Origin: Defluviitaleaceae bacterium
Lineage (GTDB): Bacteria > Bacillota > Clostridia > Lachnospirales > WRAX01
Assembly (NCBI GenBank): GCA_009780485.1
Contig: WQZZ01000010.1
Span: 1-34,476, forward strand
DNA length: 34,476 bases
Direction: 5' to 3'
Shown here piece by piece: positions 9,881 to 32,756 of the stretch; position 1 is the first letter of the stretch, and the number at the start of each line of letters is the position of its first letter. The notes beneath the pieces are model-generated. The model had not been told where the DNA came from. It made no database searches and saw only the letters and a list, made by a program, of their open reading frames with translations. Position numbers and translations under genes: made by a program.

Positions 9881-9889
9881 TGTGTTTCG

Positions 9890-12163: not shown

Positions 12164-12199
12164 AAAAACTGCCCACGGGGTAATCGGTGGCAGTTTTTT
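12164..12199 (+). terminator. rho-independent terminator
   Basis: AAAACTGCC...GGCAGTTTTTT hairpin with T-tract. Confidence 0.8.
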
Positions 12200-13526: not shown

Positions 13527-14455
13527 ATGCTCGTTTCCTCCAATTTTCTTACGGCAAACCAAAGCTCAAAATATCCAAACTCATTGTCACCGCCATAAAT
13601 TTCTAAATCCAAACCGCCGACCTGTTCATATTGCGATGCTGGTAGCCATTCACCAAAGAATCGTTTATACAAGGACTCAATAACTGTGTCAAAATTGTCC
13701 CATTCAAACTTTCCAGATGGGAACACAGCCCATGTGTGTGCTGGCACATCTAAAACTGTATAATCGTCAATTTGACTACCTCTGCCTTTGAAGGCACAAA
13801 TCATATAAGGGAACTCGCCTGTGCCAACCTCTTTGTAACTGCAAATAGCGTGTACATTATCTAAATTTTGACCGACAAACGAGGGTAGCTTGCCAGCGTC
13901 TTCATCTAGCTTAGTAATGGCACCGCTTGCATGGCAATCAGCCCACAAATCTGCGGGAGTTCGTGGGTGTTCTCCACTTTCATCAGTTCTAAAAATTCCT
14001 TCGATACCAAACACTTGAAAGGCATCTTTTTTCTCAATACGATAGTCCATTTGCTCCTTCCCTATAATCGAAACTTGGAATGAAATGCGAGGGTATGCTT
14101 TTAACAAAATACCACCCTTTTTTGCCTGTGTAGGTGTTGCACCATGCAAAGCATGAAACGCACGGGCGAAAGATACAGGCGATTCATAGCCATATTTCAT
14201 CGCCACCTCAATCACCTTAACATTACTACTTTGCAACTCTAACGCCGCCAAAGTCAACCGCCTTTTCCTCACATATTCGGAAAGCGATATATCTGCGACA
14301 TATGAAAACATTTTGAAAAATGTATGCACAGAACAACAAGCCAATTTTTCAAGCACACTGTAATCAATTTCGCCACAAAGATTATTCTCTATATAATCCA
14401 ATGTGGTGTTCATTCGTGTCAGCCAGTCCACAGCACTCTCTCCTTCCAAAATCAA
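13523..14455 (-). CDS. AraC-family transcriptional regulator with GyrI-like effector domain
   Basis: HTH LEKLACCSVHTFFKMFSYVADISLSEYVRKRRLTLAALEL...VIEVAMKYGYESPVSFARAFHALHGATP; C-terminal GyrI-like region; overlaps the hydrolase start by ATGA. Confidence 0.93.
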   Translation of the reverse strand: MILEGESAVDWLTRMNTTLDYIENNLCGEIDYSVLEKLACCSVHTFFKMFSYVADISLSEYVRKRRLTLAALELQSSNVKVIEVAMKYGYESPVSFARAFHALHGATPTQAKKGGILLKAYPRISFQVSIIGKEQMDYRIEKKDAFQVFGIEGIFRTDESGEHPRTPADLWADCHASGAITKLDEDAGKLPSFVGQNLDNVHAICSYKEVGTGEFPYMICAFKGRGSQIDDYTVLDVPAHTWAVFPSGKFEWDNFDTVIESLYKRFFGEWLPASQYEQVGGLDLEIYGGDNEFGYFELWFAVRKLEETSI

Positions 14456-14741
14456 TTATAGGGCAAGCCAAACAAAAAAGCACAACATTTCACGCCCAAT
14501 TTTGTTTGCAAGACCCTCTTGATAAATGATGCTATTCTAAATGTTGCGTAGTATATTTGACTATATGCCGAGATTTTTTAATCGCCCTAAAACTAGTATA
14601 TCAATAAGTCTTATAAGTTTCAAGATGTGATTGCCAATCACATTATTTGACCTTTACCACTAAGCTCCATCCTCATGGACAAGCATGAGCAAACCCCTAT
14701 TCACTGCATAGTATATACCAAAACTATAAGGACGGATATTT

Positions 14742-14888
14742 ATGTCAGCAAAGCTAACAGCCCATTGGGTTGAACAGATTGTTAGAGGATTGCAGGAATC
14801 CATAGATGGTATAGTTCTGTGCGACCCCGATAACATAGCAACCTGTGGAGTCAATGCCGCACACATCCTTGTGGATTTTACCAATTAA
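14742..14888 (+). CDS. short hypothetical ORF (48 aa, MSAKLTAHWVEQIVRGLQESIDGIVLCDPDNIATCGVNAAHILVDFTN)
   Basis: Preceded by AAGGACGG; otherwise unsupported. Confidence 0.3.
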   Translation: MSAKLTAHWVEQIVRGLQESIDGIVLCDPDNIATCGVNAAHILVDFTN

Positions 14889-15140
14889 AAATCCTAGTTT
14901 CAAACCCAGCTACACCATTTCCCAATCCGAAACAAGGGAGATTTCCGACTTCAACATATACAACAACGGTGCTGGCATAAAAGCAGACTGGGATTATAAA
15001 ATGTCCATGGTTGAAAAGGATATTTGGAACGCCTTTCGCCAGCCCTTTATGAAAAAAGTGCGTGTGTTAATCGAAAAATCTACCAATACATTACCGCATG
15101 ACAATTCAAAAACCATCCACGGTGTTTTTGTTATATTGAT

Positions 15141-15177
15141 AAAACCGACCATCCAGAGGTTATGAGTGGTCGGTTTT
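15141..15177 (+). terminator. terminator-like hairpin
   Basis: AAAACCGACCA...TGGTCGGTTTTT. Confidence 0.75.
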
Positions 15178-15276
15178 TCGTTTAGATGGTGTGGTTGAAA
15201 TTTCGCTTGACAAAAGCATTGATTTTGTACTATCAGCAATTGGTGCTTTATTGTTCTATAAATCAATTTAATGCAG

Positions 15277-15328
15277 AACCCATTTAAGCGATACATCTGC
15301 CTATGATGTATTGTTTGGATGGGTTTTT
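15277..15328 (+). terminator. two-part hairpin with T-tract
   Basis: AACCCAT ... GATACATC/GATGTAT ... ATGGGTTTTT. Confidence 0.5.
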
Positions 15329-15434
15329 ATGATTTTATCAAGAAAAATTTCCACCACATTGTTGTATTTCGGAAATAATTTAACCTGCAAAATAGCTATT
15401 CGACATAAAAAGTGAATAATACTTCATTTTTTTC

Positions 15435-15463
15435 TGGACAAATGTAATTTGTTGGTGTATACT
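15435..15463 (+). promoter_or_regulatory. promoter for the thiolase-fabG-maoC-tetR operon
   Basis: TGGACA, 17 bp, TATACT, 35 bp upstream of the thiolase start. Confidence 0.5.
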
Positions 15464-15497
15464 AACGAGAAACAAAAACTTTTTTGAGGTGATTTTG

Positions 15498-16676
15498 ATG
15501 AGAGAGGTTGTAATTGCATCAGCCATGCGCACAGCCATTGGAAGCTTTGGTGGTGTGTTTAAGGATGTGTCAGCCGTTGATTTGGGTGTGGTTGCCACGA
15601 AAGCGGCAATAGAGCGTGCTGGCATCAAACCAGAGCAGGTTTGCCAAGTGATTTTGGGTAATGTTTTGCAGGCAGGTCTTGGACAAAATGTGGCAAGGCA
15701 GGTGGCAATTGGTGCTGGTATTCCTGACACTGTCCCATCATTTGTGACGAATTTCGTTTGCGGAAGTGGTTTGAAAGCGGTAGAACTTGCCACCCAAGCA
15801 ATTCTTTGTGGTGACGCCGATATTGTGGTTTGCGGTGGCACAGAAAATATGTCCCAAGCCCCTTATTTGGCAAAAGGTGTCCGTTGGGGACAAAAAATGG
15901 GCAACTCTGAGCTTGAGGACACCCTGATTGCTGATGGTTTGACCGATGTTTTCAACAAATATCACATGGGAATAACTGCCGAAAATTTGGCTGATAAATA
16001 CGGCTTTTCACGTGAGGAACAAGATGAATTTTCAGCACAAAGCCAACAAAAGACAGAAAATGCCATAAAGACAGGTAAATTTAAGGCAGAAATTGCCCCT
16101 GTAAGTATTCCAGTGCGCAAGGGCGACCCTGTTGTGGTTGATGTTGATGAGTTTCCGAGGGCAGGCACAACTGCCGAGGGTCTTGGAAAGCTTCGCTCAG
16201 CCTTCAAAAAAGATGGCTCTGTAACGGCAGGGAATGCTTCGGGCATAAACGATGGGGCGGCTGTACTTGTGGTAATGAGCAAGGAAAAGGCAGAGGAACT
16301 AAATATAAAGCCTTTGGCAACCATTGTCAGTTATGCAAATGCTGGGGTATGTCCAACGATTATGGGTATTGGCCCAGTGCCTGCTACCCAAAAAGCCTTG
16401 ACAAAAGCAGGTTTGACAGTTGCCGACCTTGACTTGATTGAAGCCAACGAAGCATTTGCTGTACAAGCCCTTTCTGTGAGCAAAGAATTGAGTTTGCCTT
16501 CTGAAAAAGTTAATGTAAACGGCGGTGCAATCGCTCTTGGACATCCCATAGGGGCAAGTGGCGCTCGTGTACTTGTCACCCTAATTCACGAAATGATTGC
16601 ACAAGAGGCAAAACACGGTCTTGCGACCCTTTGCGTGGGTGGCGGACAAGGTATCGCAATGATTATAAAGCGTTAA
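15498..16676 (+). CDS. acetyl-CoA C-acetyltransferase (thiolase)
   Basis: [79 protein letters not shown]. Confidence 0.97.
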
Positions 16677-16697
16677 AACAAAATGGAGGATAAAATT

Positions 16698-17417
16698 ATG
16701 AGATTTCAAGGAAAAACAGCAATTGTTACAGGAGCAGCAGGGGGAATTGGACGTTGTGTGGCAGAAATACTGGCATCTGAAGGTGCAAATGTTTGTGCCG
16801 TTGATATGGTAGAACTTCCATATAGTGTGGATGGTGTCAAGGGCTACAAACTAAATGTAACCGACACAGTGGCATGTAAAGCTTTTTATGACGAGGTTGC
16901 CACCGAATACCCAACTTCAGACATTTTGGTTAACAACGCAGGAGTTACAAGAGATGCTATGACAGCCAAAATGACTGACGAGCAATGGGATTTGGTGATT
17001 GATGTTAATTTGAAAGGTTTGTTTAATTTAACTCGACACTTTGGACCGCATATGGAGCGTCAAAACAGCGGTTCAATTATAAATATTTCTTCTGTTGTTG
17101 GTGAATTTGGCAATATTGGTCAGGCTAATTATGCCGCAACAAAATCCGCCGTTTATGGCTTGACAAAAACATGGGCTAAAGAATTTGCCCGCAAAGGGGC
17201 TGCCGTCCGTGTAAATGCCGTGTCCCCAGGGTATACTATGACGGATATTCTTAAAACTGTGCCACAAGACTTGCTTGACAAATTTGCCGCCCAAACAATG
17301 CTTGGCAGACTTGGACAACCCGAAGAAATCGCTAAAGCAATCGTGTTTTTAGCAAGTGACGACGCATCATACATAACGGGTCACAATTTAAGCGTCAATG
17401 GAGGGATGAGATTATAA
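16698..17417 (+). CDS. FabG/PhaB-like 3-oxoacyl-ACP or acetoacetyl-CoA reductase (SDR family)
   Basis: GKTAIVTGAAGGIGRCVAE, LVNNAGVTRD, INISSVVGEFGNIGQANYAATKSAVYGLTKTWAKE, VSPGYTMTDI. Confidence 0.95.
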   Translation: MRFQGKTAIVTGAAGGIGRCVAEILASEGANVCAVDMVELPYSVDGVKGYKLNVTDTVACKAFYDEVATEYPTSDILVNNAGVTRDAMTAKMTDEQWDLVIDVNLKGLFNLTRHFGPHMERQNSGSIINISSVVGEFGNIGQANYAATKSAVYGLTKTWAKEFARKGAAVRVNAVSPGYTMTDILKTVPQDLLDKFAAQTMLGRLGQPEEIAKAIVFLASDDASYITGHNLSVNGGMRL

Positions 17418-17833
17418 TGAATGGACTTACAATGAGCCAAATCAGCGTGGGGCAATCCGCCAGCTTTACAAAAACAATCACCGAAACAGATGTATATATG
17501 TTTGCGGGCGTGACGGGAGACTTAAACCCTGCTCACTTAAACGAAGAATATGCCAAAAATACCATGTTTAAGGGACGCATCGCCCATGGGATGCTTGGGG
17601 CAGGTTTGATTTCTGCTGTCCTTGGTATGTATTTACCAGGTCCTGGAACTATTTATATGAAGCAAGACCTGAAATTCCTTGCTCCTGTACGCTTTAACGA
17701 CACAATCACAGCCACCTGTACCGTCAAGGAAAAAATCGAGGACAAAGGGCGTCTTGTCATGGAATGTATCGTGACAAATCAGGATGGCACACAGGTAATC
17801 GTCGGGGAAGCCCTTGTGATGCCGCCAAAATGA
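17417..17833 (+). CDS. MaoC-like (R)-specific enoyl-CoA hydratase
   Basis: Hot-dog/MaoC motif FAGVTGDLNPAHLNEEYAKNTMFKGRIAHGMLGAGLISAVLGMYLPGPGTIY. Confidence 0.93.
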   Translation: MNGLTMSQISVGQSASFTKTITETDVYMFAGVTGDLNPAHLNEEYAKNTMFKGRIAHGMLGAGLISAVLGMYLPGPGTIYMKQDLKFLAPVRFNDTITATCTVKEKIEDKGRLVMECIVTNQDGTQVIVGEALVMPPK

Positions 17834-18456
17834 TAAAAGCTGAGGATTTACTAAAATCTCCGCCAAAAACAAAGCTTCGAGAGGTGACCCTTGAGAAGCT
17901 TTGTTTGGCAGCGGAGCAAATTTTTATGAAAAAAAATTATTATAATACAAGCATATACGACATCGTGACCGAAGCCGATGTGTCCATCGGCACTTTTTAC
18001 AATTATTTCCCTGATAAAATCAGTATGTATAAATATGTTGTGCTGAAACATGGGCAAGATATTAGGAAGTTTATCGCCAAAGGGTTGTCCAAAACAGGCA
18101 TAACCGACCGAAAGAAAATGGAAAGGGAAGGCATAAAGCTTTATTTGGACTATTGCCTTAAAAATCCCCGTGTCATCAACATTATTTGGCAATCCCACTT
18201 TGTCGCACCTGAGCTTTTTATCGCATATTACGACAATTTTGGAAAACAGTATGAAAAGCAGTTAGCGTCTGCTGTCGCTGTCGGCGAAGTTTACCCTGCT
18301 GACCTTGAGGTTGTCAGCTATATGTTGATGGGTATGTCGAATTTTCTTGCAATCAAATATGTGGAATTTGGCGACCACAACAACTTGACTGACGAACGTC
18401 TTTATGAAATTGTTGACCAAGTGATGGAAATTTTGCAAAGGGGGATGTTTGTTTAA
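17830..18456 (+). CDS. TetR/AcrR-family transcriptional regulator
   Basis: HTH LCLAAEQIFMKKNYYNTSIYDIVTEADVSIGTFYNYFPDK; ATGA overlap with the upstream gene. Confidence 0.93.
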   Translation: MIKAEDLLKSPPKTKLREVTLEKLCLAAEQIFMKKNYYNTSIYDIVTEADVSIGTFYNYFPDKISMYKYVVLKHGQDIRKFIAKGLSKTGITDRKKMEREGIKLYLDYCLKNPRVINIIWQSHFVAPELFIAYYDNFGKQYEKQLASAVAVGEVYPADLEVVSYMLMGMSNFLAIKYVEFGDHNNLTDERLYEIVDQVMEILQRGMFV

Positions 18457-18488
18457 TAATTAAGTCCTACAAGTTCTGAAAAAAGTTC

Positions 18489-18517
18489 TTGACGCTTCTT
18501 GGGAATTAATATATAAT
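18489..18517 (+). promoter_or_regulatory. sigma70/sigmaA-type promoter for the KASIII-liv-CoAT-ACAD-etf operon
   Basis: TTGACG, 17 bp, TATAAT (18512-18517). Confidence 0.7.
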
Positions 18518-18571
18518 AATTGTAATCAAAAAAATGAATGACCCTTCACATTTTGAAAAGAGGTGTTAGCT

Positions 18572-19597
18572 TTGGAGAGACACGTTGGAATTGCGGGGAT
18601 TGGCACATATATTCCCCAAAGTTTTATGACAGCGGGAGAGATTTCCGATGCCACAGGTGGCGTGTGGAGCGAGGATGCTGTCATAAACAAGCTTGGAATT
18701 GTGAAAAAACCCGTCACCGATGAAGTTGGGACGCAGGAAATGGGATATTTGGCGGCGAAGGCTTGCTTGGAAAATGCAGGGATAAGTCCTTTAGAAATTG
18801 ACGTGATTTTGTGCATGGGCGAGGAATACAAGGAATTTCCTTTGACAACCTCGGCTTTGTATATCCAAGACAAACTTGGTGCTGTAAACGCTTGGGGTAT
18901 TGACGTGCAAAACCGTTGTTGCACTGCCGTTTCTGCCATAAAAATGGCGAAAGATATGTTGATGGCGGATGACGAGATTGACACAATTCTCATTGCGGGC
19001 GGTTATCGCAACGGCGACTTCATTGATTATACTGACAGCAATGTGTCGTTTATGTTTAACTTGGCGGCAGGGGGCGGAGCAATCCTTCTTCGCAAAAATC
19101 TTGGTAAAAATTTAGTGCTTGGCAGTCATATCATTGCAGATGCAAGCTTAAACCGTACTGCTGGGGTTGAAATTGGCGGGCAAGTAAATCCAATAAACGC
19201 TGAAAATTTTGAAGAAGCACGTCGCTCTCTACGTTTGATGGATGCCGAAACCATGAAAAACCGTTTGAACGCAGTGAGCATGGATAATTGGCATACTTGC
19301 ATCAACCGTGCTTTTGAAAAGTCTGGTTTACCCTGCTCTGCCATGGACTATTTAGCGATTTTGCATATCAAGCCAAGCGGGCATCGTGGGATGCTTGCAG
19401 ATTTAGGCTTGACGGATGACCAGTCTATATATCTTGAAGATTTTGGACATATAGGACAGGTTGACCAAATTTTGTCCTTGGAGCTGGCTTTGAAGCAAGG
19501 CAAGGTTGGGGAAGGTTCGGTTGTATGTATGTTGTCCGCTGGAATCGGCTATGTTTGGGCGGCTTCTGTTATTAAGTGGGGGGAATTTAAGGTATGA
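18572..19597 (+). CDS. KASIII-like (3-oxoacyl-ACP synthase III/thiolase-superfamily) protein
   Basis: IAGIGTYIPQSFMTAGEISDATGG, VQNRCCTAVSAIKMA (nucleophile Cys), LHIKPSGHRGM, DFGHIGQVDQILSL. Confidence 0.82.
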   Translation: MERHVGIAGIGTYIPQSFMTAGEISDATGGVWSEDAVINKLGIVKKPVTDEVGTQEMGYLAAKACLENAGISPLEIDVILCMGEEYKEFPLTTSALYIQDKLGAVNAWGIDVQNRCCTAVSAIKMAKDMLMADDEIDTILIAGGYRNGDFIDYTDSNVSFMFNLAAGGGAILLRKNLGKNLVLGSHIIADASLNRTAGVEIGGQVNPINAENFEEARRSLRLMDAETMKNRLNAVSMDNWHTCINRAFEKSGLPCSAMDYLAILHIKPSGHRGMLADLGLTDDQSIYLEDFGHIGQVDQILSLELALKQGKVGEGSVVCMLSAGIGYVWAASVIKWGEFKV

Positions 19598-20466
19598 GTA
19601 TTTTTGTACAAATCCTTTTCAACAGCTTGGAAGCGGGCGGGATTTATGCACTTGCTACCCTTGGCGTAATCCTGATATTTCGCACATCCTCTGCCTTTAA
19701 CTATGCCCAAGGGGTTATCTCCATGTTTTGTGCCTTTATCGCAGCAAATTTTCTCCACTCTACAGGTATGAATGTTTGGGTCGCTACCATCTTTGGTCTG
19801 TTTTCGGCATTGCTTGTGGGAATTTTCATAGATAGGGTGGTAATTTCTCGTACGATAAACTTACATTCTGTGTCAAAACAAATTATAACCCTTGGTCTTG
19901 TTATTGTATTTTTGGGGCTTGCCCCTATGTTTTTCGGGGTTGACCCTATGACATATCCACGTTTTGCCCATGGTGCTGTCACTGTTGCCGGGGCAAACAT
20001 TACCCATGGTGCGATTATCAACATTTCTATTGGTATCATGGTTGTTGCGATTTTGTTTTTTGTCATACAAAAGACAAAATGGGGGCTGGCTGTCCGTGCC
20101 ACGGCTTCCAACGGTTTGGTTGCCCGTTTGATGGGCATACCCACCCCTGTTGTAACCATGGGGGCGTGGGCGATTGCGGCGGCTCTTGGTACACTAGCGG
20201 CGGTTATGCGTGCACCTGACACCATGGTTAACCTTGTAATGATGGACAGCATCCAAATCACGGCTTTGCTTGCTTGTGTTTTGGGGGGTCTTGGCACTTT
20301 CCATGGACCTGTGATTGCGGCATACCTTATCAGCCTTGGACGTGCCTTGGTAGCCTTCTACATAAGTCCAACTTGGAGCGAGGCAATCATTTACATCCTA
20401 ATTCTTCTGGTGCTTATGTTTGCACCCAATGGCATTTTCGGCAAAAAAGTGCTGAAGAAAGTTTAG
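19594..20466 (+). CDS. branched-chain amino acid-type ABC transporter permease (LivH-like)
   Basis: FNSLEAGGIYALATLGVILIFRTSSAFNYAQGVISM..., GLVARLMGIPTPVVTMGAWAIAAALG. Confidence 0.95.
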   Translation: MSIFVQILFNSLEAGGIYALATLGVILIFRTSSAFNYAQGVISMFCAFIAANFLHSTGMNVWVATIFGLFSALLVGIFIDRVVISRTINLHSVSKQIITLGLVIVFLGLAPMFFGVDPMTYPRFAHGAVTVAGANITHGAIINISIGIMVVAILFFVIQKTKWGLAVRATASNGLVARLMGIPTPVVTMGAWAIAAALGTLAAVMRAPDTMVNLVMMDSIQITALLACVLGGLGTFHGPVIAAYLISLGRALVAFYISPTWSEAIIYILILLVLMFAPNGIFGKKVLKKV

Positions 20467-20472
20467 GAGGGT

Positions 20473-21522
20473 ATGGATATGAATAAAGTTTTTGGAACAA
20501 TCAAAAAAACACAGCCATATCTTGGTTTTCTGATTTTGGGAGGGATTTTGTCCCTTGCCCCTGCACTTGTGGCAAATACCCAATGGTTTTTATTCGCATG
20601 GCTTACCATTTTTGCGGGCTTTGTGGTGTATTCCATTGCCAGCCTTGGGATGAACATTTTGATGGGCTATGGTGGCTTGGCAAGCCTTGGAACTGCTGGC
20701 TTTATGGGTCTGGGTGCGTACCTTACCATGGTTTTGACTGTGGATTTGGGGTTAAGCTTCTTCCCCGTTCTCATCCTTACGATTTTGGCGACGACAGTGC
20801 TTGGGATTTTGGTTGGACTAATATCTTTGCGTGTGGAAGGGTTTTTCCTTGCCATCGCCACACTGGTAATCGCTGAAATGCTTCGCCAAGTGTTTCAACA
20901 GATGCCTTTGCTTGGCGGACACGCAGGGCGTACAATGCCAGCATTTCCAACCATTTCGATTTTTGGCATCGCTGAATGGACATTAAACCGAAACCAGACA
21001 TATATAATGCTTGTAATTTTCCTAGTAATTGCCATGTTTGTGACGCAACTTTTGTTCAAGTCAGCAACAGGGCGGGCATTATCTGCCATGCGAGGAAGTG
21101 AGTCAGCTGCCGCTGCCATGGGTATAAGCATTTTCCGTGGTAGATTGTTGGCATTTGCCCTTGCTTCTGGTTTTGCGGGGGCGGCTGGGTCATTGTTCAT
21201 GTTTTTCATGCCTTTCACCAACCCGAACCACTGGAACTTAGTGCTTTCTCTCTTTATCTTTGCGGTTGTGGTTATTGGTGGTGTACGTTCGGTTGCTGGC
21301 ACTGTACTTGGTGCGTTTATCGTGTTTGCCGTACCCCAGTTGTTTATCGCCCGCCTACCAATTATTGGTGACATAAGTGGCATGGACTTCGTGTTCACAG
21401 GTGTTTTGATTATCGTGGTTGTGCTTTTCTACCCCGCTGGTCTTGTATATATGCCTATAAGTATTAAAAACGGCATCACAAAGCTGATTAACAAACGTAA
21501 GAAAGGAGGCGAAACGGCATGA
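20473..21522 (+). CDS. branched-chain amino acid-type ABC transporter permease (LivM-like)
   Basis: SLGMNILMGYGGLASLGTAGFMGLGAYLTMVL, SATGRALSAMRGSESAAAAMGISIFRGRLLAFALASGFAGAAGSL. Confidence 0.95.
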   Translation: MDMNKVFGTIKKTQPYLGFLILGGILSLAPALVANTQWFLFAWLTIFAGFVVYSIASLGMNILMGYGGLASLGTAGFMGLGAYLTMVLTVDLGLSFFPVLILTILATTVLGILVGLISLRVEGFFLAIATLVIAEMLRQVFQQMPLLGGHAGRTMPAFPTISIFGIAEWTLNRNQTYIMLVIFLVIAMFVTQLLFKSATGRALSAMRGSESAAAAMGISIFRGRLLAFALASGFAGAAGSLFMFFMPFTNPNHWNLVLSLFIFAVVVIGGVRSVAGTVLGAFIVFAVPQLFIARLPIIGDISGMDFVFTGVLIIVVVLFYPAGLVYMPISIKNGITKLINKRKKGGETA

Positions 21523-22322
21523 GCATCCTTTTAAGCGTAGAAAATTTGTCCATTGCCTTCGGTGGGCTGAAAGCCGTGGATGATTTGACTTTCGAGATGA
21601 ACCATGGTGAAATTTATGGCATCATAGGTCCAAACGGAGCGGGTAAAACCACCGCATTTAACTGCATTACGCAATTTTACAAGCCAAACGCAGGCAAAAT
21701 TCTATTTGACAGCAAAAAGAATGGCGTGATGGACTTGGTTGGCTTGAAGCCACATCAAGTAATTGGACATGGGCTTGTCCGCACATTCCAAAATGTGGAG
21801 TTAATTTCGTCCTTGTCGGTGATTGACAATTTGCTTGTTGGGGCGCATATCGCTTTCAAGTCCACATTGCCAGAGCAAATTTTCCGCCTGCCACGTGCAA
21901 GGCGTGAAGAAAAGCAATTGCGTGAAAGAGCTATGGAAGTCCTCGAAATGCTTGACCTAACCCATATCGCCCATATGCCAGCAACCATGCAACCTTACGG
22001 ATACCAAAAAAAGCTAGAGCTTGGTCGCACCCTTATGATGTCACCAAAACTTATTATACTTGATGAACCAGCGGCAGGGCTTAATGAAGTGGAAACCGAG
22101 GGGCTTATCAACATTGTGCAGAGCGTAGCAAAAGACCTAAATTGTGGCATTTTGCTGATTGAGCATGATATGAATTTTGTTTCAAAACTTTGCAATCGTA
22201 TTTGTGCTATAAGCTTTGGTAAAAGGCTTGCAATTGGCACACCTGACGAGATTAAGGCACATCCTGATGTGCGGGAAGCATACCTTGGCAAAAGTGATGA
22301 AGGGGGTGATGTTGATGGCTAA
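21519..22322 (+). CDS. ABC transporter ATP-binding protein (LivG-like)
   Basis: GIIGPNGAGKTTAFNCITQFYKPNAGKI, LVRTFQNVELISSLSVIDNLLVGAH, LILDEPAAGLNEVE. Confidence 0.95.
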   Translation: MSILLSVENLSIAFGGLKAVDDLTFEMNHGEIYGIIGPNGAGKTTAFNCITQFYKPNAGKILFDSKKNGVMDLVGLKPHQVIGHGLVRTFQNVELISSLSVIDNLLVGAHIAFKSTLPEQIFRLPRARREEKQLRERAMEVLEMLDLTHIAHMPATMQPYGYQKKLELGRTLMMSPKLIILDEPAAGLNEVETEGLINIVQSVAKDLNCGILLIEHDMNFVSKLCNRICAISFGKRLAIGTPDEIKAHPDVREAYLGKSDEGGDVDG

Positions 22323-23034
22323 TATCGCACTGGACATCAAAGGCTTGACGGTGCAGTACGGCTATATCACCGCCGTCAAGGGGGTGGATATGCAAATCCC
22401 GCAGGGGGGGCTTGTTGCCCTTCTCGGCTCTAATGGTGCTGGCAAATCCAGCATTTTGAAGGCGATTTCTGGGGCTGTCCCTGCAAAAGGCGAAATGACC
22501 TTTTTCGGAGATAACATCAGCGGAATGATTTCCAACAAAATCACTAAACGAGGACTTTTCTCCGTGCCTGAGGGTAGGCAAATTTTTAATGACCTTACCG
22601 TGGAAGAAAACTTACGGACAGGAATGTTTACCCTTAAAGACAAAAAACAACAAGCCAGTAATTTCGAGCGTGTATACAGCTATTTCCCATTTTTGGCAGA
22701 GCGTAAGAAGCAAGTCGCCCAAACCCTGTCGGGCGGGGAACAACAAATGCTTGCCATGGGCAGAGCATTGATGGGAAGTCCAAAAATGCTTATTTTGGAC
22801 GAACCGTCCCTAGGGCTTGCCCCTCTAATTGTCCAGCAAATTTTTGACATTGTGCAACAAATTAGGGATGACGGCACAACAGTGCTGATTGTGGAGCAAA
22901 ACGCCCTCGGGGCATTGAAAATCGCTGATTATGCCTATGTTTTAGAGCTTGGCAATATCATAATGCAGGGCGAGGCAAAGGAACTTATAAAAGACCCGAC
23001 CCTCATCGAGGCGTATTTGGGCAAATCTGAATAA
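22315..23034 (+). CDS. ABC transporter ATP-binding protein (LivF-like); start trimmed
   Basis: ALLGSNGAGKSSILKAISG, SVPEGRQIFNDLTVEENLRTGMF, LSGGEQQMLAMGRALMGSPKMLILDEPSLGLAPL. Confidence 0.95.
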   Translation: MANIALDIKGLTVQYGYITAVKGVDMQIPQGGLVALLGSNGAGKSSILKAISGAVPAKGEMTFFGDNISGMISNKITKRGLFSVPEGRQIFNDLTVEENLRTGMFTLKDKKQQASNFERVYSYFPFLAERKKQVAQTLSGGEQQMLAMGRALMGSPKMLILDEPSLGLAPLIVQQIFDIVQQIRDDGTTVLIVEQNALGALKIADYAYVLELGNIIMQGEAKELIKDPTLIEAYLGKSE

Positions 23035-23082
23035 TTTAGCAATTACCGTCAAAGGGCGGTTAAAAATAAGGAGGAAACGAAA

Positions 23083-24381
23083 ATGAAGAAAAAATTATTT
23101 ACCCTTGCAGCTTTGGCTGCTATGACAATCGGTGTGATGTCATTTACAGCTTGCGGTGGCAATGACGATGATGCGGGCGGGCAACCCCAAGGTGTTACAG
23201 GCACTGCTGGTACACATTCTCAAGGTGTTACAGACACCACGATTTACATCGGTAACACAGCCGCCACTTCTGGTGCTTTTGCTGCTGTTGGTGTGCCTTT
23301 TAACCATGGTCTGCAATCCTATCTTGACATTGTAAACGCCGCTGGTGGTGTCCACGGTAGGCAAATCCAACTTGTTCACCATGATGATGGCTTTGACGCA
23401 GTAAACGGTCTTGCCTTCACCGAACAACTTATCCATGATGACCGTATTTTTGCCCTTGTTGGTCATTTCGGAACACCGACCATCGGTGCAACCTTGCCAA
23501 TGCTAAAAGAAACTGGTATTCCAGCAGTTTATTTTGCAGCAGGTATTTCTCAGCTTTATATGCCGTATGCGACCACCGTTGCGGAAGGTCAGCGTCTTTT
23601 CCCTGTGCAACCACTGTTCCGTCCAGAAGGTCATATCTTGGCAGCACGTGTAATTGACGAATATGCTCCAAGCACCATCGGCGTAATTTTCTCCAATGAT
23701 GAAGCGGGTCAAGACCTTATTAGCGGTATCCGCTCTCAAGTGGCGGAAATTGGTGGCGTAAACCTTGTTGAAGCCCAAATCACTCCTGCTGACGCTGGCT
23801 CAATCTCTCCTGCTGTTTTGACTATGTATGCTCAAAATGTGGATGTTATCATAGTTGCTACTTTGCAAGGTGACTTTCCAGCGGTTGTAAACTCTATCGT
23901 TGGTCAAGGGCTTAACGTACCTGTGTTTACTTCATACGTAAGTGCTGCCCCAATCATCATCCAAGGTTTTGCAGCGGACTATCTTGGTGCAAATGCCACT
24001 TTCCCTGTTTATGTAACCAGCTGGCTTAGCATCTTTGACGATGAAGGCGAACTTGTTGACGATTACTGGGCATTTGCTGAGGGCGTTGGCGAAGACATGG
24101 CTTTGAACACCTTTGCAATGGCTGGCTGGGTTGCTGCAAGCACCTTCGTCCAAGGTTTGCGTGCCATGGGTAATGTGGATTATGTTACTTGGGAAGGTCT
24201 GACAAGTGCTTTGGAAGCGAACACTGTAAGCCTGCCAATGGGCGGTATCATGGACTTTTCAAATGGTGTAAGAACTGGTACAACTGCCATGGCATTGCTT
24301 CGTGCTGATGTGGATGGTGGCGAATGGTCGCCTTTGCGTGGTATGGAGCAACTTGAAGATATTGTAAACCGTATCAACTAA
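23083..24381 (+). CDS. ABC transporter substrate-binding lipoprotein (LivK-like)
   Basis: Signal peptide MKKKLFTLAALAAMTIGVMSFTAC; periplasmic-binding fold TIYIGNTAATSGAFAAVGVPFNHGLQSYLDIVNAAGGVHGRQIQLVHHDDGFD. Confidence 0.93.
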   Translation: MKKKLFTLAALAAMTIGVMSFTACGGNDDDAGGQPQGVTGTAGTHSQGVTDTTIYIGNTAATSGAFAAVGVPFNHGLQSYLDIVNAAGGVHGRQIQLVHHDDGFDAVNGLAFTEQLIHDDRIFALVGHFGTPTIGATLPMLKETGIPAVYFAAGISQLYMPYATTVAEGQRLFPVQPLFRPEGHILAARVIDEYAPSTIGVIFSNDEAGQDLISGIRSQVAEIGGVNLVEAQITPADAGSISPAVLTMYAQNVDVIIVATLQGDFPAVVNSIVGQGLNVPVFTSYVSAAPIIIQGFAADYLGANATFPVYVTSWLSIFDDEGELVDDYWAFAEGVGEDMALNTFAMAGWVAASTFVQGLRAMGNVDYVTWEGLTSALEANTVSLPMGGIMDFSNGVRTGTTAMALLRADVDGGEWSPLRGMEQLEDIVNRIN

Positions 24382-24397
24382 TACAGGAGGCATGTCT

Positions 24398-25696
24398 ATG
24401 TATGACAATAAAATCATAACCATAGACCAAGCCGTCAAACTTGTTAAATCTGATTATCATATTGTCACGGGGCTTGGTGCTGTCGAGGCCCGTGACTTTA
24501 TGGAAAATTTGCACCACATTGCAGGGGATGTTCGCAATGTGACCATAACTAACTGCCTGCCAATGTCTGGCGGGCAGTTTATGGATGCAGAGTTTTCGGA
24601 CAGCTTTAATATTGACGGTTGGTTTTACAGTGGGGGATTACGCTCTGCTCATAAAAACGGCAATGTAAGCTTTGTGCCAAATCACTTGCATTTGGCAGGG
24701 GAAAAGCGACTTTTCCATGCTAAGCCCAATATTTATGTTGGGGTGGCGACCATGCCTGACAAACACGGCTATATGTCCCTGTCACTGAGTAATACCTATG
24801 AAAGACGGATGATTGAGGCGGCTGACATTGTAATTTTGGAGATTAACCCAAAATTCCCCCGTACTTTTGGGGATTTGGAAGTTCATGTGGATGAAGTTGA
24901 CTATCTCGTTGAGACAGATTATGGCCCGCCCATCATCCCCGACAGCGAGCCTAGTGAAAAAGACCGTATAATCAGCAAATATATCACCGAATATATAAAT
25001 GATGGGGATTGTTTGCAACTTGGCATCGGAAGTATTCCAAATGCCGTGGCGGAAGGGCTGGTGGACAAAAAAGACCTTGGTATACACACAGAAATGCTTG
25101 GTTCTGGACTTATGAAGCTTGCAAAACTTGGTGTTGCTAATGGACGTCACAAAAATTTTTATCCAAACAAACTTGTGGCGACTTTCGCCCTTGGCACACA
25201 GGAATTGTATGACTTTTTGGATGACAACCCAAGTGTGTTAATCCTTGACGGAAATTTTGTCAATGACCCCGCCGTCATTGCTCAAAATGACAACCAAATC
25301 AGCATAAACACAACAATTGAGATTGATTTGACGGGTCAGTGTTGTTCTGAATCTCTTGGGCATATGCAGTTTAGCGGTACAGGCGGGCAAGCGGACACAG
25401 TTATTGGGGCGCAAAAGTCCAAAAATGGTAAAAGCTTTATCGCCCTACATTCGACGGCGATGGTGCGTGGGACAGATGGTGAACGCCATGAGGTATCAAA
25501 AATCGTAGCAACCCTAAAACCTGGGGCAATCGTTTCTTTGTCCCGTAATGACGTGGATTTTGTGGTGACGGAATATGGTGTCGCATCACTTCGTGGCACA
25601 AATGTTAAAGAGCGTGTACATCGTCTTATTGGCATCGCCCACCCAAGTTTCCGTGAAGATTTGATGAAACAAGCAAAAGAGCTTATGTATATCTAA
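24398..25696 (+). CDS. acetyl-CoA hydrolase/transferase-family CoA-transferase (4-hydroxybutyrate/butyryl-CoA:acetate type)
   Basis: LQLGIGSIPNAVAEGL, HTEMLGSGLMKL, FSGTGGQADTVIGAQKSKNGKSFIAL, EYGVASLRGTNVKERVHRLIGIAHPSFRE. Confidence 0.93.
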   Translation: MYDNKIITIDQAVKLVKSDYHIVTGLGAVEARDFMENLHHIAGDVRNVTITNCLPMSGGQFMDAEFSDSFNIDGWFYSGGLRSAHKNGNVSFVPNHLHLAGEKRLFHAKPNIYVGVATMPDKHGYMSLSLSNTYERRMIEAADIVILEINPKFPRTFGDLEVHVDEVDYLVETDYGPPIIPDSEPSEKDRIISKYITEYINDGDCLQLGIGSIPNAVAEGLVDKKDLGIHTEMLGSGLMKLAKLGVANGRHKNFYPNKLVATFALGTQELYDFLDDNPSVLILDGNFVNDPAVIAQNDNQISINTTIEIDLTGQCCSESLGHMQFSGTGGQADTVIGAQKSKNGKSFIALHSTAMVRGTDGERHEVSKIVATLKPGAIVSLSRNDVDFVVTEYGVASLRGTNVKERVHRLIGIAHPSFREDLMKQAKELMYI

Positions 25697-25710
25697 GGGG
25701 GTAAAAAATT

Positions 25711-26526
25711 ATGGCTTTTTTTGAAATAAACGGCAAAAATATTTATTATGAAGTCCATGGGGAAGGGACGCCCGTTGTACTGCTAAACGGCATTATGATG
25801 TCCACCCCTAGCTGGCAGATGTTTGTCCCAGCCTTGTCGTCAAATAATAAGCTAATTTTAGTGGATTTTTTTGACCAAGGGCAATCCCATAAGATGGTTG
25901 ACGAGGAATATGACCAGATGTTGCAAGTAAGCGTGGTCAAGAGCTTGCTTGAGCATTTAGGGCTTCCAAAAGCCAATATTGCAGGTGTTTCCTATGGTGG
26001 AAATGTCGCCCTTCGCTTTGCCATTGAGCATCCCCAAATGGTGGATAAACTTGCAATTTTCCACGCCGCCCCAAAAACAGGTGCATGGCTTCGTGACGTG
26101 GGCAAAAGCTGGATTTTAAGTATGGATTGCCCCGAAAATTTTTACAACACGTCAATCCCTGTGATTTATTCGCCAGAGTTTTATAATGGCAACCCAGATT
26201 GGGTGGAGGTGCGTAAAAACTTCTTGACCACCCATGTTTTCACAAACCAAGATTTCATGCAGGCTATGGCACGCCTTAGTCACTCGTCATACAGCTATGA
26301 TGTCAGCGACAAGCTGGACAAAATAACAGCAAAAACCCTAATTGTAGCGGCAGATAGCGACCCGCTAACCCCATATGCAGACCAAAAAGCCCTTAAAGAC
26401 GGCATCAAAGATGCCGAACTTGTCCTTCTACCAAATTGTGGTCACGCTTCAATGTATGAAAAACCAACCCTTTTTGCCAGCCTAATTACTGGCTTTGTAA
26501 ACACAGATTTTACGGGACTTCAATAA
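25711..26526 (+). CDS. alpha/beta hydrolase
   Basis: EVHGEGTPVVLLNGIMMS, ANIAGVSYGGNVALRFAIEHP (nucleophile elbow GVSYGG), LIVAADSDPLTPY, NCGHASMYEKP. Confidence 0.92.
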   Translation: MAFFEINGKNIYYEVHGEGTPVVLLNGIMMSTPSWQMFVPALSSNNKLILVDFFDQGQSHKMVDEEYDQMLQVSVVKSLLEHLGLPKANIAGVSYGGNVALRFAIEHPQMVDKLAIFHAAPKTGAWLRDVGKSWILSMDCPENFYNTSIPVIYSPEFYNGNPDWVEVRKNFLTTHVFTNQDFMQAMARLSHSSYSYDVSDKLDKITAKTLIVAADSDPLTPYADQKALKDGIKDAELVLLPNCGHASMYEKPTLFASLITGFVNTDFTGLQ

Positions 26527-26544
26527 TATTTGAGGAGGAAAAAT

Positions 26545-27666
26545 ATGGATTTTAGTTTATCAAAAAAACATTTGCTTATGCAAGAATTGTTTCGTCGGTT
26601 TGCCGAAAAAGAAGTAAAACCCCTTGCTGCCGAGGTGGATGAAAAAGAAATTTTTCCATACGGCACTGTGGATTTGCTTGGCAAATACGGGATGCTTGGT
26701 ATCCCATGGTCAGCGGATAATTTGTCATATACCCTATGTGTGGAAGAAATGAGCAAGCATTGTGCAACAACAGGGGTTATTGTGTCTGCCCACACAAGCT
26801 TGTGTGCTGCCCCCATATCCGATTGGGGTACGGCAGAACAAAAGGGGAAATATCTTTCAAAACTTGCCAGCGGAGAATGGCTTGGAGCCTTTGGTCTAAC
26901 TGAAGCTGGAGCGGGGACTGATGCGGCAGGTCAGCAAACAAAAGCCGTCCTTGATGGTGACAATTATATCCTAAACGGCACAAAAATTTTCATCACAAAC
27001 GCCGATGCTGCCCATGTGTATATCATCATCGCCATGACTGACAAAAGCCAAGGAACAAGAGGACTTTCTGCATTTATCGTTGAAAAGGATATGCCTGGTT
27101 TTTCCATTGGCAAAAAAGAGGATAAAATGGGCATCCGTGGCTCTTTGACCTGCGAGCTGATTATGGAAAATTGCATCATCCCTAAGGGAAACTTGCTGGG
27201 CAAAGAAGGGGAAGGCTTCAAAGTCGCCATGAAAACATTGGATGGCGGACGCATCGGAATTGCCGCCCAAGCCCTCGGAATCGCCCAAGGGGCAATTGAC
27301 ACCACCGTGGCATATGTGCGGGAGAGAAAGCAGTTTGGCAAGCGTATTTCCCAATTCCAAAACACACAATTCGAGCTGGCAGATATGCAAACAAAAGTGG
27401 ATGCCGCCCGCCTTTTAACCTATCGTGCTGCAAACCTTAAAGATGCTGGCAAAAAATACACCAGCGAAGCTGCCATGGCGAAACTTTTTGCATCAGAAGT
27501 GGCAAGCGACGTGACACGTCGTTGCCTGCAACTTCACGGCGGATATGGGTATATCCGTGAATATCCTATCGAGCGGATGATGCGTGATGCAAAAATCACC
27601 GAGCTTTATGAGGGTACAAGTGAAGTGCAGAAAATGGTTATTGCTGCTGGTATGAAGGTTAATTAG
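26545..27666 (+). CDS. acyl-CoA dehydrogenase (butyryl-CoA dehydrogenase-like)
   Basis: GAFGLTEAGAGTDAAGQQTKAVLDGDNYILNGTKIFITNA, YVRERKQFGKRISQFQNTQFELADM, QLHGGYGYIREYPIERMMRDAKITELYEGTSEVQKMVIA. Confidence 0.96.
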   Translation: MDFSLSKKHLLMQELFRRFAEKEVKPLAAEVDEKEIFPYGTVDLLGKYGMLGIPWSADNLSYTLCVEEMSKHCATTGVIVSAHTSLCAAPISDWGTAEQKGKYLSKLASGEWLGAFGLTEAGAGTDAAGQQTKAVLDGDNYILNGTKIFITNADAAHVYIIIAMTDKSQGTRGLSAFIVEKDMPGFSIGKKEDKMGIRGSLTCELIMENCIIPKGNLLGKEGEGFKVAMKTLDGGRIGIAAQALGIAQGAIDTTVAYVRERKQFGKRISQFQNTQFELADMQTKVDAARLLTYRAANLKDAGKKYTSEAAMAKLFASEVASDVTRRCLQLHGGYGYIREYPIERMMRDAKITELYEGTSEVQKMVIAAGMKVN

Positions 27667-27676
27667 GAGGTATTGA

Positions 27677-28468
27677 ATGAAGATAATTGTTTGTGTAAAG
27701 CAAGTGCCAGATACCAACGAGGTGCGTCTTGACCCGAAAACTGGCACATTAATAAGGGAAGGTGTTCCAAGCATCATCAACCCCGATGATTTGTGCGGAA
27801 TTGAGGCAGCCTTGCGTTTGAAAGATGAATATGGTTGTCATGTGACGGCAGTCAGCATGGGACCACCACAAACAGATGTTGCCTTGCGGGAAGCTTTGGC
27901 GATGGGTTGTGACGAAGCGTATTTGGTTTCTGACCGTGCATTTGGCGGGGCGGACACATGGGCAACATCAAGCACGTTGGCAGGGGCAATCAAAAAACTT
28001 GGTTACGATTTGATAATAACAGGCAGACAGGCAATTGACGGGGACACTGCCCAAGTTGGACCGCAAATTGCAGAGCATTTGGGCATCCCGCAAGTAACCT
28101 ATGCCCAAGACATTGAAAAAACCGAGGGCAACGCCCTGATTGTACAACGTCAATATGAAGACAGGTATCAAAAAATCAAAATCAAATGCCCCGCTCTTGT
28201 GACTGCACTTTCAAGTCTTAACAAGCCACGTTATATGTCCGTTGCTGGCGTTGTTTCCGCATATGACACAAAAGAGGTCAAAACCCTCACTTTTGAGGAT
28301 TTGAAAGAATTTGTTAAGGAAGAAAATATCGGACTAAAAGGCTCGCCCACAAAGGTTAAAAAGTCTTTTCCCAAGCAGGTTAAAGCACAAGGCGTCAAGC
28401 ATGAAGTGGACGAAGACGATGCCGTTGAAATTATTGTGAAAAAGCTTAAAGAGCATTTTGTGATTTAG
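27677..28468 (+). CDS. etfB: electron transfer flavoprotein subunit beta
   Basis: MKIIVCVKQVPDTNEVRLDPKTGTLIREGVPSIINPDD, LIITGRQAIDGDTAQVGPQIAEHLGIPQVTYA. Confidence 0.96.
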   Translation: MKIIVCVKQVPDTNEVRLDPKTGTLIREGVPSIINPDDLCGIEAALRLKDEYGCHVTAVSMGPPQTDVALREALAMGCDEAYLVSDRAFGGADTWATSSTLAGAIKKLGYDLIITGRQAIDGDTAQVGPQIAEHLGIPQVTYAQDIEKTEGNALIVQRQYEDRYQKIKIKCPALVTALSSLNKPRYMSVAGVVSAYDTKEVKTLTFEDLKEFVKEENIGLKGSPTKVKKSFPKQVKAQGVKHEVDEDDAVEIIVKKLKEHFVI

Positions 28469-28480
28469 GGAGGTGAAATT

Positions 28481-29470
28481 ATGACGGAAAATATTTTGGT
28501 AATTTGCGAACAACGTGACGGCAAGTTTCAAAAAGTTTCTATGGAACTTATCGGCAAGGCACGTCAGTTGATTGAAAAAAAGCAGGGACAAAAGGTTGTT
28601 GCCCTTCTTATGGGTGACAAAATTGCAGAGCTTGCCCAAGATTTGGTTAACCACGGGGCGGACAGGGTTGTTTATGTTGACAATCCAGCTCTCAAAGACT
28701 TTATGACCGAACCTTATACGAAAGCGGCTTGTGCAGTGCTTAAAAGCGAAAATCCCGACATGGTGCTGGTGGGTGCTTCATCCATTGGGCGCGACCTTGC
28801 CCCACGCATTGCCGCCCGCTTAAAAACAGGCTTGACGGCGGATTGCACCACCTTAGAAATCGACGATGAAACGGGCGAGCTTTTGATGACCCGCCCAGCT
28901 TTTGGTGGAAATGTCATGGCGACAATTATCTGCCCAGACCATCGTCCACAAATGGCAACGGTGCGTCCTGGTGTTATGGTTGCCCTTGAACCACAAACCA
29001 AAACAGGTGAGATTGTTGACTTTGATGTGGCTTTTGAAACCTCTGACAGCAATGTGGAAATCCTTGAAACTGTGATGATAGCCAAGGAAACCAAGGACAT
29101 TACGAAGGCAAACATTTTGGTGTCTGGCGGGCGTGGTATTGGCAACAATTTCGCACCCTTGAAAGAACTGGCTGACGTTTTGGGTGGGGAAGTTTCCGCA
29201 TCACGTGCCTCGGTGGATGCTGGGATTGCCTATAAAGATATGCAGGTTGGGCAAACAGGAAAAACCGTACGACCAGATGTATACTTCGCCTTTGGAATAT
29301 CGGGTGCCGTCCAGCATACAGCAGGCATGGAAGAAGCCACCCTAATATTTGCCATAAACAAAGACGCAACGGCACCAATTTTTGATGTGGCAGATGTAGG
29401 TATTGTTGGGGATGCCCACAAAATTATCCCAAAGCTTGTAAATCGCATCAAAAAAGAGAAAAATCTTTAA
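28481..29470 (+). CDS. etfA: electron transfer flavoprotein subunit alpha
   Basis: VLVGASSIGRDLAPRIAARLKTGLTADCT, LVSGGRGIG, VGQTGKTVRPDVYFAFGISGAVQHTAGMEEATLIFAINKDATAPIFDVADVGIVGD. Confidence 0.97.
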   Translation: MTENILVICEQRDGKFQKVSMELIGKARQLIEKKQGQKVVALLMGDKIAELAQDLVNHGADRVVYVDNPALKDFMTEPYTKAACAVLKSENPDMVLVGASSIGRDLAPRIAARLKTGLTADCTTLEIDDETGELLMTRPAFGGNVMATIICPDHRPQMATVRPGVMVALEPQTKTGEIVDFDVAFETSDSNVEILETVMIAKETKDITKANILVSGGRGIGNNFAPLKELADVLGGEVSASRASVDAGIAYKDMQVGQTGKTVRPDVYFAFGISGAVQHTAGMEEATLIFAINKDATAPIFDVADVGIVGDAHKIIPKLVNRIKKEKNL

Positions 29471-30020: not shown

Positions 30021-31646
30021 TCAAAACATCCAACTTATTATTATAACCTGTTCTTTTGTATCAAGGTCTCTCTCTCTGATTTGTATTGTATCAATAAAGT
30101 CATTTATGATTTTATGCGTTAAGATGTCAACCCGCTTGTACTTTTCTAGCAGAATCACCATATTGTCGAAGGTCTTTTTATTTATTTCAATGGCGGTTAA
30201 TTCCTCTTGCAAATACCGCTTCCTGTTGACGTCACTTTGTCGCTCTTTTTCAAAAACTTTCTTAAAGTCCAGAAAATCTTCTTCCGAAATGACACCATTT
30301 AGTTTGTCGGCATAGGACATAGTTATGTTTCTTAGGATGGTTTCAATTTTCGATTCAACTTCAAAGAGTTGCTTTTCAATTTTTGGGCGATTATCGCCAC
30401 CTTGTTCAATGATAGATAGGGCAGAACTTACAATGTCATAAGCATCACCTCCTATGGTTGCATCATTGATTAAACCCCTTATTTTGGTGATAATAGCATC
30501 TTCAATCTTATCCTGACTAATACAATGAGGTGTACACTCTCTCCTTTTGGACATTGCCGAAAGCCTGCATCTTAAGAAGTGTGTTTTGCCATTTCGTGAT
30601 AATCCGCTACGTTGCATGGTGGAACCGCAGTCTGCACACAGAAGCTTACCCGCCAAAATATGGGGCTTTGACTTTTCTGACGGCTTGTTATCGGGGTTGT
30701 TTTTATAGCCTGTGCGTTTGCGGTCTATCAGCTTCTGGACTTTGTGAAACTGATTCTCGTCAATTATGGGAGGGTGGTTGTTCTTTATCACTATCCATTC
30801 ACTCTCGGGGACTTTAGTTGTCTTTTTACTTTTGTAGCTGACCTTTCGCTCTCTACCTTGAATTAATGTTCCTATGTAAGCCTTATTCCTAAGAATCTTA
30901 TTGATGGTATTTGCTGACCATACGCCATACTTAAGGCTGTAAATTCCAGCACTTGGGTTTTCAAAGTTTAGACCCTGATTCTTTTTGTATTGACTTGGCG
31001 TAGGCACTCCTCTTTGGCTAAGAATATGCCCTATTGTGTGAGTTCCATTGCCGTCCAAATACAGGGAGTAGATTTCTTTAACGATTTGAGCGGCCTCTTC
31101 ATCAATAGTCAACTTATGCCTGTCATTTGGGTCTTTAATGTATCCATAGCAGGCAAAAGAACCTAGAAACTGCCCATCCTCCATCTTTTTCTTGAACACA
31201 GCCCTAATATTATCGGACAGGTCCTCGCTATGCCATTCATTGATAAGCCCATATATCTGGCGAGCTTTTTTATTGCCCTTGACATTGGTGTCCACATTAT
31301 CGGTTAGGCTGATGAAGCGTATGCCCCACTCTATAAAGTATCCGTGGATGTATTTTTCTACTAATTCCATGTCTCTGGTAAATCGGGATTGGTGTTTGCA
31401 GATTATGGTGTTAAACTTTCCATCGGCAGCATCTTTAATCATCTGCTTAAACGCTGGTCTGTCCGAAAATCCGCTTAAATCCTCATCAACATAAACATTG
31501 TGTACAAGAAATCCATTGGAAACTGCGTAATCAATCAATAACAACTTCTGATTTTGGATACTTTCGCTATCATCTCCGATATGAACCTTATCTGTGTCCT
31601 CCTTCGATAAACGGCAATAGATGGCCACAATTTCTTGGTTTTGCAT
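30021..31646 (-). CDS. large serine recombinase (site-specific integrase)
   Basis: Catalytic domain IVAIYCRLSKEDTD (nucleophile Ser), SIQNQKLLLIDYA, YVDEDLSGFSDRPAFKQMIKDA; recombinase domain (GSFACYGYIKDPND, NKAYIGTLIQGRERKVSYKSKKT); zinc ribbon LLCADCGSTM...RCR...CTPHCI; uninterrupted. Confidence 0.95.
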   Translation of the reverse strand: MQNQEIVAIYCRLSKEDTDKVHIGDDSESIQNQKLLLIDYAVSNGFLVHNVYVDEDLSGFSDRPAFKQMIKDAADGKFNTIICKHQSRFTRDMELVEKYIHGYFIEWGIRFISLTDNVDTNVKGNKKARQIYGLINEWHSEDLSDNIRAVFKKKMEDGQFLGSFACYGYIKDPNDRHKLTIDEEAAQIVKEIYSLYLDGNGTHTIGHILSQRGVPTPSQYKKNQGLNFENPSAGIYSLKYGVWSANTINKILRNKAYIGTLIQGRERKVSYKSKKTTKVPESEWIVIKNNHPPIIDENQFHKVQKLIDRKRTGYKNNPDNKPSEKSKPHILAGKLLCADCGSTMQRSGLSRNGKTHFLRCRLSAMSKRRECTPHCISQDKIEDAIITKIRGLINDATIGGDAYDIVSSALSIIEQGGDNRPKIEKQLFEVESKIETILRNITMSYADKLNGVISEEDFLDFKKVFEKERQSDVNRKRYLQEELTAIEINKKTFDNMVILLEKYKRVDILTHKIINDFIDTIQIRERDLDTKEQVIIISWMF

Positions 31647-32595
31647 TTGGGTGGTTCCCTCCCTCATAAATGAAAAGAAGTAGATGCCTACTGACTAAAG
31701 ATATTATATCGCAGCACACAACCTCGGCATAGCTTCATGTACGTTTCAAGTTCCCAACTTTTCCTTGCCTGCATTATCAGGATTTTGGGGATGTTTTTTT
31801 GAAGGACAGCTATCCATCCTGATGCCACCTTTCACTGAGCCAAGGTTGTCTTTCACCAAGTGTCCAACAATGATTTTCCTAATGTTTTTGTGCCTCTCCA
31901 CTTCCTCGGTTGACATAAAAATGTCTGAAACAACAATTCTGGCACCTCTCAAATCATCACCTCAAACTGAGCCACTTATAAAATCTGTATTAATATCTAT
32001 ATTACACCATGGCTTGTTTGCATACTGCAACAGGATTTATGCCTTAAAAATCAATGCCATGACTTAACAGTACATGCCTGTGTTTGCAAATTTTTAGAGT
32101 ACTTTAACAATATGGCGGTAAACGGATGTGTGGCTGTTCGTTCAAATTCCTAATACCTTATGATGGAGATGCTCTAAGTATTATTAAATCATCTTAATTG
32201 CTTATAACAATCCGTTTTCTTTCCAAAATAAAAATCCACAGAAACCGATTAAATCAATTCTGTGCATATAATAATCGAAAAACCAGCCTAATTATATGAC
32301 CAGATAACAATCCAAAATCATGTTATACCAAGAAAACCAGCCATCAATTTTGACAAAAGCAAAAACCTTAAAAAGTAGCAAGGATTGCGTGGATTTTCGA
32401 TAGCCCAATGCCAGAAACATCTACACCTATCAAAATTTAACTACTTACACCTCTTTTAACCGACTTGTACAAGTGGTGCAATAGGCTTGTGCAAGTTTTG
32501 GAAGTTGTTAAAGTGGTCAATCGAATGATTTGAGGTATTTATAGCACCCTTGATGGTCGTGGTGGAAAATCGCACGGTTTGACGGATGCGGAGAT

Positions 32596-32640
32596 GGCTA
32601 AGATTATGAAGCTTCCACATGGGTTCCGTGACCATTATCG
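32596..32640. other. attR: right junction of the integrative element (attP arm GGCTAAGATTAT 32596-32607; core ACATGGGT 32617-32624)
   Basis: Subtilase homology starts to the right of the core; arm is a perfect inverted copy of the attL arm. Confidence 0.9.
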
Positions 32641-32756
32641 TCGTATGGGTGGTTTTGTCCGTTGATGAAATCCACACTGTCAAGGATGCGCCCCTGCAAG
32701 TCAGGAACTGGAGCAACTCCTGTGTCTAAAATGGCAATAGAAATTGGCTGGTGCAT
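32617..32756 (-). pseudogene. subtilisin-like protease N-terminal part (catalytic Asp [12 protein letters not shown] and HGTHV), disrupted by the element; absent from the ORF track because it is under 60 aa
   Basis: GAGGAGGTGACACC-ATG then [47 protein letters not shown]; beyond the core the frame reads EAS-stop inside the element. Confidence 0.92.

Follow-up and report, generated by a model that had tools for sequence, protein, structure and literature searches.

A putative attP site with mirrored outer arms, divided between the ends of a serine recombinase element in a subtilase gene of a Defluviitaleaceae bacterium

Organization of the locus

The window, the whole stretch of 34,476 nucleotides analyzed here, contains a gene for an S8 peptidase (subtilase) that is interrupted by an element encoding a large serine recombinase. 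The flanks of the element are two halves of one S8 gene on the minus strand, with residues 1–47 encoded at the right end and residues 40–291 at the left. The gene is broken inside the catalytic His codon (HGT|CA|Y), and removal of the element restores ...GHGT-H-VAGI... in frame. Both halves are open and retain the catalytic residues, while read-through from the 5′ fragment ends at a TAA within the outer arm of the attachment site. The features of the locus are listed below in order of position.

8410–9150, minus strand: 3′ fragment of the S8 gene with the catalytic Ser (GTSMAAP); Peptidase_S8, E 7e-39
9146–9153, plus strand: 8-bp common core ACATGGGT at attL; predicted crossover dinucleotide TG at 9149–9150
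9150–32620: integrated element of 23,471 bp, measured between the two crossovers; both junctions interrupt one S8 gene at its catalytic-His codon
9150–9174: 25-bp putative attP half-site kept in attL
9163–9174, minus strand: attL outer arm, covering attP positions 14 to 25 as counted from the center; exact GGCTAAGATTAT
9371–14455: cargo block 1, encoding an MPG glycosylase, a YetF-like protein, SelO, a beta-lactamase-fold protein, and an AraC/Cass2-type regulator
15489–29470, plus strand: cargo block 2, encoding a thiolase, an SDR reductase, a MaoC-like hydratase, a TetR-type regulator, a KAS III-like enzyme, a branched-chain-type ABC transporter, a CoA-transferase, an alpha/beta hydrolase, an acyl-CoA dehydrogenase, and EtfB/EtfA
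30021–31667, minus strand: large serine recombinase of 548 aa with Resolvase, Recombinase, and Zn_ribbon_recom domains
31746–31952, minus strand: 68-codon ORF directly upstream of the recombinase, with a TTG start behind GAGGTG
32596–32607, plus strand: attR outer arm, covering attP positions 25 to 14 as counted from the center; exact GGCTAAGATTAT, with a mirrored arm in relatives as well
32596–32620: 25-bp putative attP half-site kept in attR
32604–32756, minus strand: 5′ fragment of the S8 gene with the catalytic Asp and His; tblastn match to residues 1–47
32617–32624, plus strand: 8-bp common core ACATGGGT at attR; predicted crossover dinucleotide TG at 32620–32621

The recombinase matches a PHROG integrase family with an E-value of 7e-103, and its profile matches the solved structures of the A118 integrase and SPbeta YokA. 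Its 548-aa frame is intact, and the residues that are invariant in the family alignment are retained. The 68-codon ORF upstream of it had no match in Pfam or PHROG; conserved counterparts precede the recombinase in G002 (55%) and G012 (38%), and a similar-looking ORF was spotted by eye at this place in G096. It is a weak candidate for a directionality factor.

No phage structural or conjugation genes were found among the annotated cargo ORFs of the element, the short ORFs having been searched in part. By its annotated cargo ORFs, the element would be a metabolic island rather than an integrative conjugative element or a prophage. The region 15489–29470 holds a complete-looking cluster for acyl-CoA oxidation together with a branched-chain-type transporter, carried by the element. 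On the inside of attR, the stretch 32540–32624 reads as an open frame that would run on through attP in the circular form.

Geometry of the reconstructed attP

Joining the inside of attR (32596–32620) to the inside of attL (9150–9174) yields a site with a spacing of 12-9-8-9-12 and TG at its center. The perfect 12-bp inverted repeat of this site spans 14–25 bp from the central TG, and its two arms lie 23 kb apart in the window. Exact copies of GGCTAAGATTAT are present at 32596–32607 on the plus strand and 9163–9174 on the minus strand, with no others in the window or in the 2.04-Mb assembly; the chance expectation for this sequence in the window, allowing up to 1 mismatch, is 0.22. The spacing and the perfect arms proposed in the original prediction are borne out by the coordinates of the arms and core. 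The description of the site as perfectly symmetric over 50 bp holds for the arms, which are perfectly mirrored at equal distance from the center, but not for the inner positions 1–12, of which 4 of 12 match. Taken over their full 25 bp, the two half-sites agree at 16 positions, including 12 of the 13 at positions 13–25. The reconstructed attB lacks the arms, as originally noted, with 4 of 13 matches.

The probability that 12 bp mirror each other perfectly at one set spacing is ∼4^-12, and a composition-matched simulation produced no such match in 20,000 draws. Although the arms are short, a chance match or a terminator or regulator palindrome can be dismissed as an explanation in view of this probability, the 23 kb between the copies, and the recurrence of the same spacing in relatives with other arm sequences.

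Relatives at the same codon and the crossover

Relatives of the recombinase were gathered by genome search and an alignment query; a single-protein scan of genome contigs gave none. Identity to the window recombinase ranges from 76% in G002 and 71% in G012 down to ∼40%, and the relatives' recombinases adjoin an S8 fragment that ends at the identical His codon. Approximately 43 genomes harbor at least one such junction and ∼40 harbor both gene halves; many of the relatives' genomes are draft assemblies, and several sites were joined from two contigs. Different elements are always found at this one codon, and an uninterrupted S8 gene is also present in genomes of the same families. The relatives at the S8 site include Anaerocolumna and Clostridium sp. 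Cult3. One family, f18, contains Anaerotignum sp., Candidatus Coprocola, and Candidatus Neoanaerotignum; it is termed Anaerotignum-type below and is presumably Anaerotignaceae. Viral contigs were searched for both the exact attP pattern and the recombinase, with no match.

The bases common to attL and attR number 8 in the window, 6 in G002, 5 in G012, and 2 (CA) in G097. Since the overlap in G097 is CA alone, the exchange, barring later mutation, took place at CA as read along the gene; on the window plus strand this is TG, the crossover dinucleotide that had been predicted from the window. The variable length of the overlap also argues against a target-site duplication. Viewed in a single genome, the 8-bp direct repeat and the inverted repeats that lie 9 bp inward of it resemble the ends of a transposon that has short inverted repeats and duplicates 8 bp of its target site. 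Such a transposon is highly improbable, however, as neither the length nor the identity of the repeat is constant among the relatives, different elements always lie at one codon, and the annotated ORFs include a serine recombinase and no DDE transposase.

The window recombinase shares its strand with the S8 gene and lies ∼930 bp from attR, whereas the recombinases of the nearest relatives have the opposite orientation and a 3′ end ∼80–140 bp from the junction. An internal inversion that turned the recombinase round in the window element is likely. The end of the element thus appears rearranged, as might be expected if the recombinase or the site were a non-functional relic, but the open 548-aa frame, the family-invariant residues that it keeps, and the perfection of both arms make a relic unlikely.

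Outer arms and the zinc ribbon

Ten elements, each with a full-length recombinase and both junctions, were compared. For alignment, their attP halves were anchored at the CA within the His codon, the position of which is fixed by the protein; because the alignment is set from the protein and not from the arms, a peak at zero offset is not built in. At positions 13–25, 106 of 130 comparisons match at zero offset versus 29–53 at the twenty other offsets. The symmetry stops at position 25, at which 7 of the 10 sites match, compared with 2 of 10 at position 26. Eight elements match at 10–12 of the 13 positions; the other two are G004 (8/13; two contigs joined) and G127 (7/13). The original assignment to the ∼50-bp symmetric attP sites of large serine integrases is upheld by this peak, by the recombinase within the element, and by the relatives at the same codon.

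The arm sequences vary by lineage, with the mirroring retained. Four arm sequences are seen, namely ATAATCTTAGCC, about AAAAGCGAAAA, TGCAAATCAAAAC, and about AAATAAAAACAGC, and a fifth type, TATTCCTAA, is found in an eleventh element (locus L269). Owing to the common ancestry of the relatives, the ten sites are not ten independent tests, and counting the five different arm sequences is more appropriate.

At 20 sites, the recombinase match ends before the zinc ribbon; here the symmetry is confined to approximately positions 3–10, with background beyond. These shortened recombinases comprise ∼295–325 residues, with a Pfam domain check in two, and cluster in one group of the tree with a support of 90/94. 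The recombinases lacking a zinc ribbon in Anaerotignum-type genomes are found at the identical codon, with no outer arms. As the outer arms are absent where the zinc ribbon is absent, they are probably the binding sites of the zinc ribbon. Four Anaerotignum-type genomes (G183, G079, G032, and G321) were excluded from the counts because their reconstructed attP is asymmetric: an arm of the full type lies beside the 5′ gene fragment and the short type lies beside the 3′ fragment, which gives the appearance of two stacked elements sharing a site.

Proposed mechanism and comparison with known integrases

The 50-bp sequence is very probably the attP of the recombinase encoded at 30021–31667, split between attR and attL at integration. 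By homology to the LI/A118 integrase, one recombinase subunit would occupy each 25-bp half-site, with the recombinase domain on positions 1–12, the linker over positions 13–15, and the zinc ribbon on positions 16–24 within the mirrored arm. The attP-bound dimer would pair with a dimer on attB, the stretch of the S8 gene coding for HGTHVAGI. Cleavage of both sites would then be staggered by 2 bp at TG/CA, which makes up bases 1 and 2 of the catalytic His codon, and rejoining of the cut ends would produce attL and attR.

In the LI/A118 integrase, the attP half-site is 25 bp in length with the zinc-domain motif at positions 16–24 and the linker at 13–15, and the zinc-domain motif of attB is shifted by 5 bp (PMC3783163). 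The window site resembles the Listeria A118/LI attP in its 25-bp half-sites, the outer motif at the zinc-domain position, the central dinucleotide, and the attP arms that are missing from the same place in attB (PMC3783163). It differs from A118/LI in that the window arms form a perfect 12-bp mirror, the target gene is another one, and the 5-bp-shifted attB motif has weak support (PMC3783163). A 5-bp inward shift gave the highest mean of all shifts, but the value is small and comes mainly from G000 and G002; the shifted motif is best supported in the genus of the window and is weak or absent overall.

Mobile island or intervening element

Among the genomes sampled from the Anaerotignum-type family, ∼47 have a detectable S8 gene, and in 33 of these it is split. 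Within its genera, most elements are common along much of their length, often 80–100%, which indicates that the interrupted state is inherited. When joined, the two halves of the gene contain no stops and keep the Asp and His motifs, and their dN/dS is 0.02–0.24, mostly near 0.1, with dS up to ∼2.5 and rough values where dS is high. The Anaerotignum-type gene appears to be under purifying selection while interrupted. Open halves combined with low dN/dS suggest that the gene becomes whole again at some point, as happens in skin and gin (PMC5025042, PMC5595907), and that the Anaerotignum-type elements may be excised in the manner of the sigK skin element.

The window element has only ∼10% in common with G002 or G012. 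In this lineage it behaves like a mobile island, and its insertion may be recent. It is possible, if somewhat doubtful, that the window element is itself comparable with skin or gin, with a regulated excision that restores the protease; the attP reading would be kept and the biological role would change. The open gene halves with their catalytic residues are consistent with such a role, as are a dN/dS of 0.14 between the S8 genes of the window and G002, the inheritance of the interrupted state with its cargo and the constraint on the gene in the Anaerotignum-type family, and the precedents of skin, gin, and yin (PMC5025042, PMC5595907, PMC10747680). The hosts also carry SpoIVA and are hence likely spore formers; nearly all genomes have SpoIVA, and its presence does not separate those with a split S8 gene from those with an intact one. 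Against a skin-like role, the limited sharing in the window lineage means that the constraint may predate the insertion, and the S8 protease has no evident tie to sporulation.

On balance, we lean toward the S8 His codon being a long-standing docking site across the order, at which the Anaerotignum-type islands would have become permanent intervening elements; their shortened recombinase would have lost the zinc ribbon and the outer arms, and would excise the island to switch the protease on.

Within the literature covered, a search found no intervening element of an S8 gene. In the case of SCC, insertion is at the 3′ end of rlmH and this gene continues to work, unlike the S8 gene, which the window element cuts at its active site. 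SCC elements (ccr; mentioned in PMC5595907) resemble the window element in combining a serine recombinase with cargo, in having no evident transfer genes, and in using one conserved chromosomal site. The gin element in gerE of Bacillus cereus has three recombinases and a demonstrated sporulation-specific excision (PMC5595907). Like gin, the window element is a non-phage island with a serine recombinase that interrupts a chromosomal gene and has a short common core with inverted repeats; unlike gin, it has one recombinase, targets an S8 protease, and is known from sequence alone (PMC5595907). The skin elements in sigK of Clostridioides difficile and Bacillus subtilis likewise contain a large serine recombinase, split a gene of which both halves are kept, and have a counterpart to the small candidate accessory ORF, but the target gene is a different one and many Anaerotignum-type copies use a recombinase without a zinc ribbon (PMC5025042). 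The yin element also places a serine recombinase within a protease gene; it is a prophage and its target, yabG, encodes a sporulation cysteine protease, in contrast with the non-phage island in a subtilase described here (PMC10747680).

Significance

By itself, the attP is a clean addition to a known class of sites. The comparison of its relatives constitutes a natural experiment that ties the zinc ribbon to the outer arms of attP, and narrows the crossover to two bases from sequence alone. Many gut-type bacteria have a conserved protease gene that is interrupted within its active site; since a complete chromosome (G120) is among them, as are cultured Anaerocolumna strains, programmed excision is testable by PCR. 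Site-specific recombinases with short, well-defined sites are useful tools.

Further observations in the relatives

More distant relatives occupy other genes, one of which resembles a cwlD-type amidase gene as judged from its translation. Locus L026 (G004:C144) has, at ∼1148–1250, another attP-like half-site (GCATAATCTTAGCC) located ∼90 bp further in than the first, an arrangement reminiscent of two stacked elements. At 9688–18039 of locus L100 (G097:C40), the serine recombinase gene at the S8 site is followed by several more in a row. Conserved cargo with a GntR-type regulator was seen by eye in the translations of all three of the loci L226, L227, and L182 (G120, G303, and G256). The elements of G120 and G303 also carry TRAP transporter-like genes, and that of G120 carries thiamine genes, both noted by eye.
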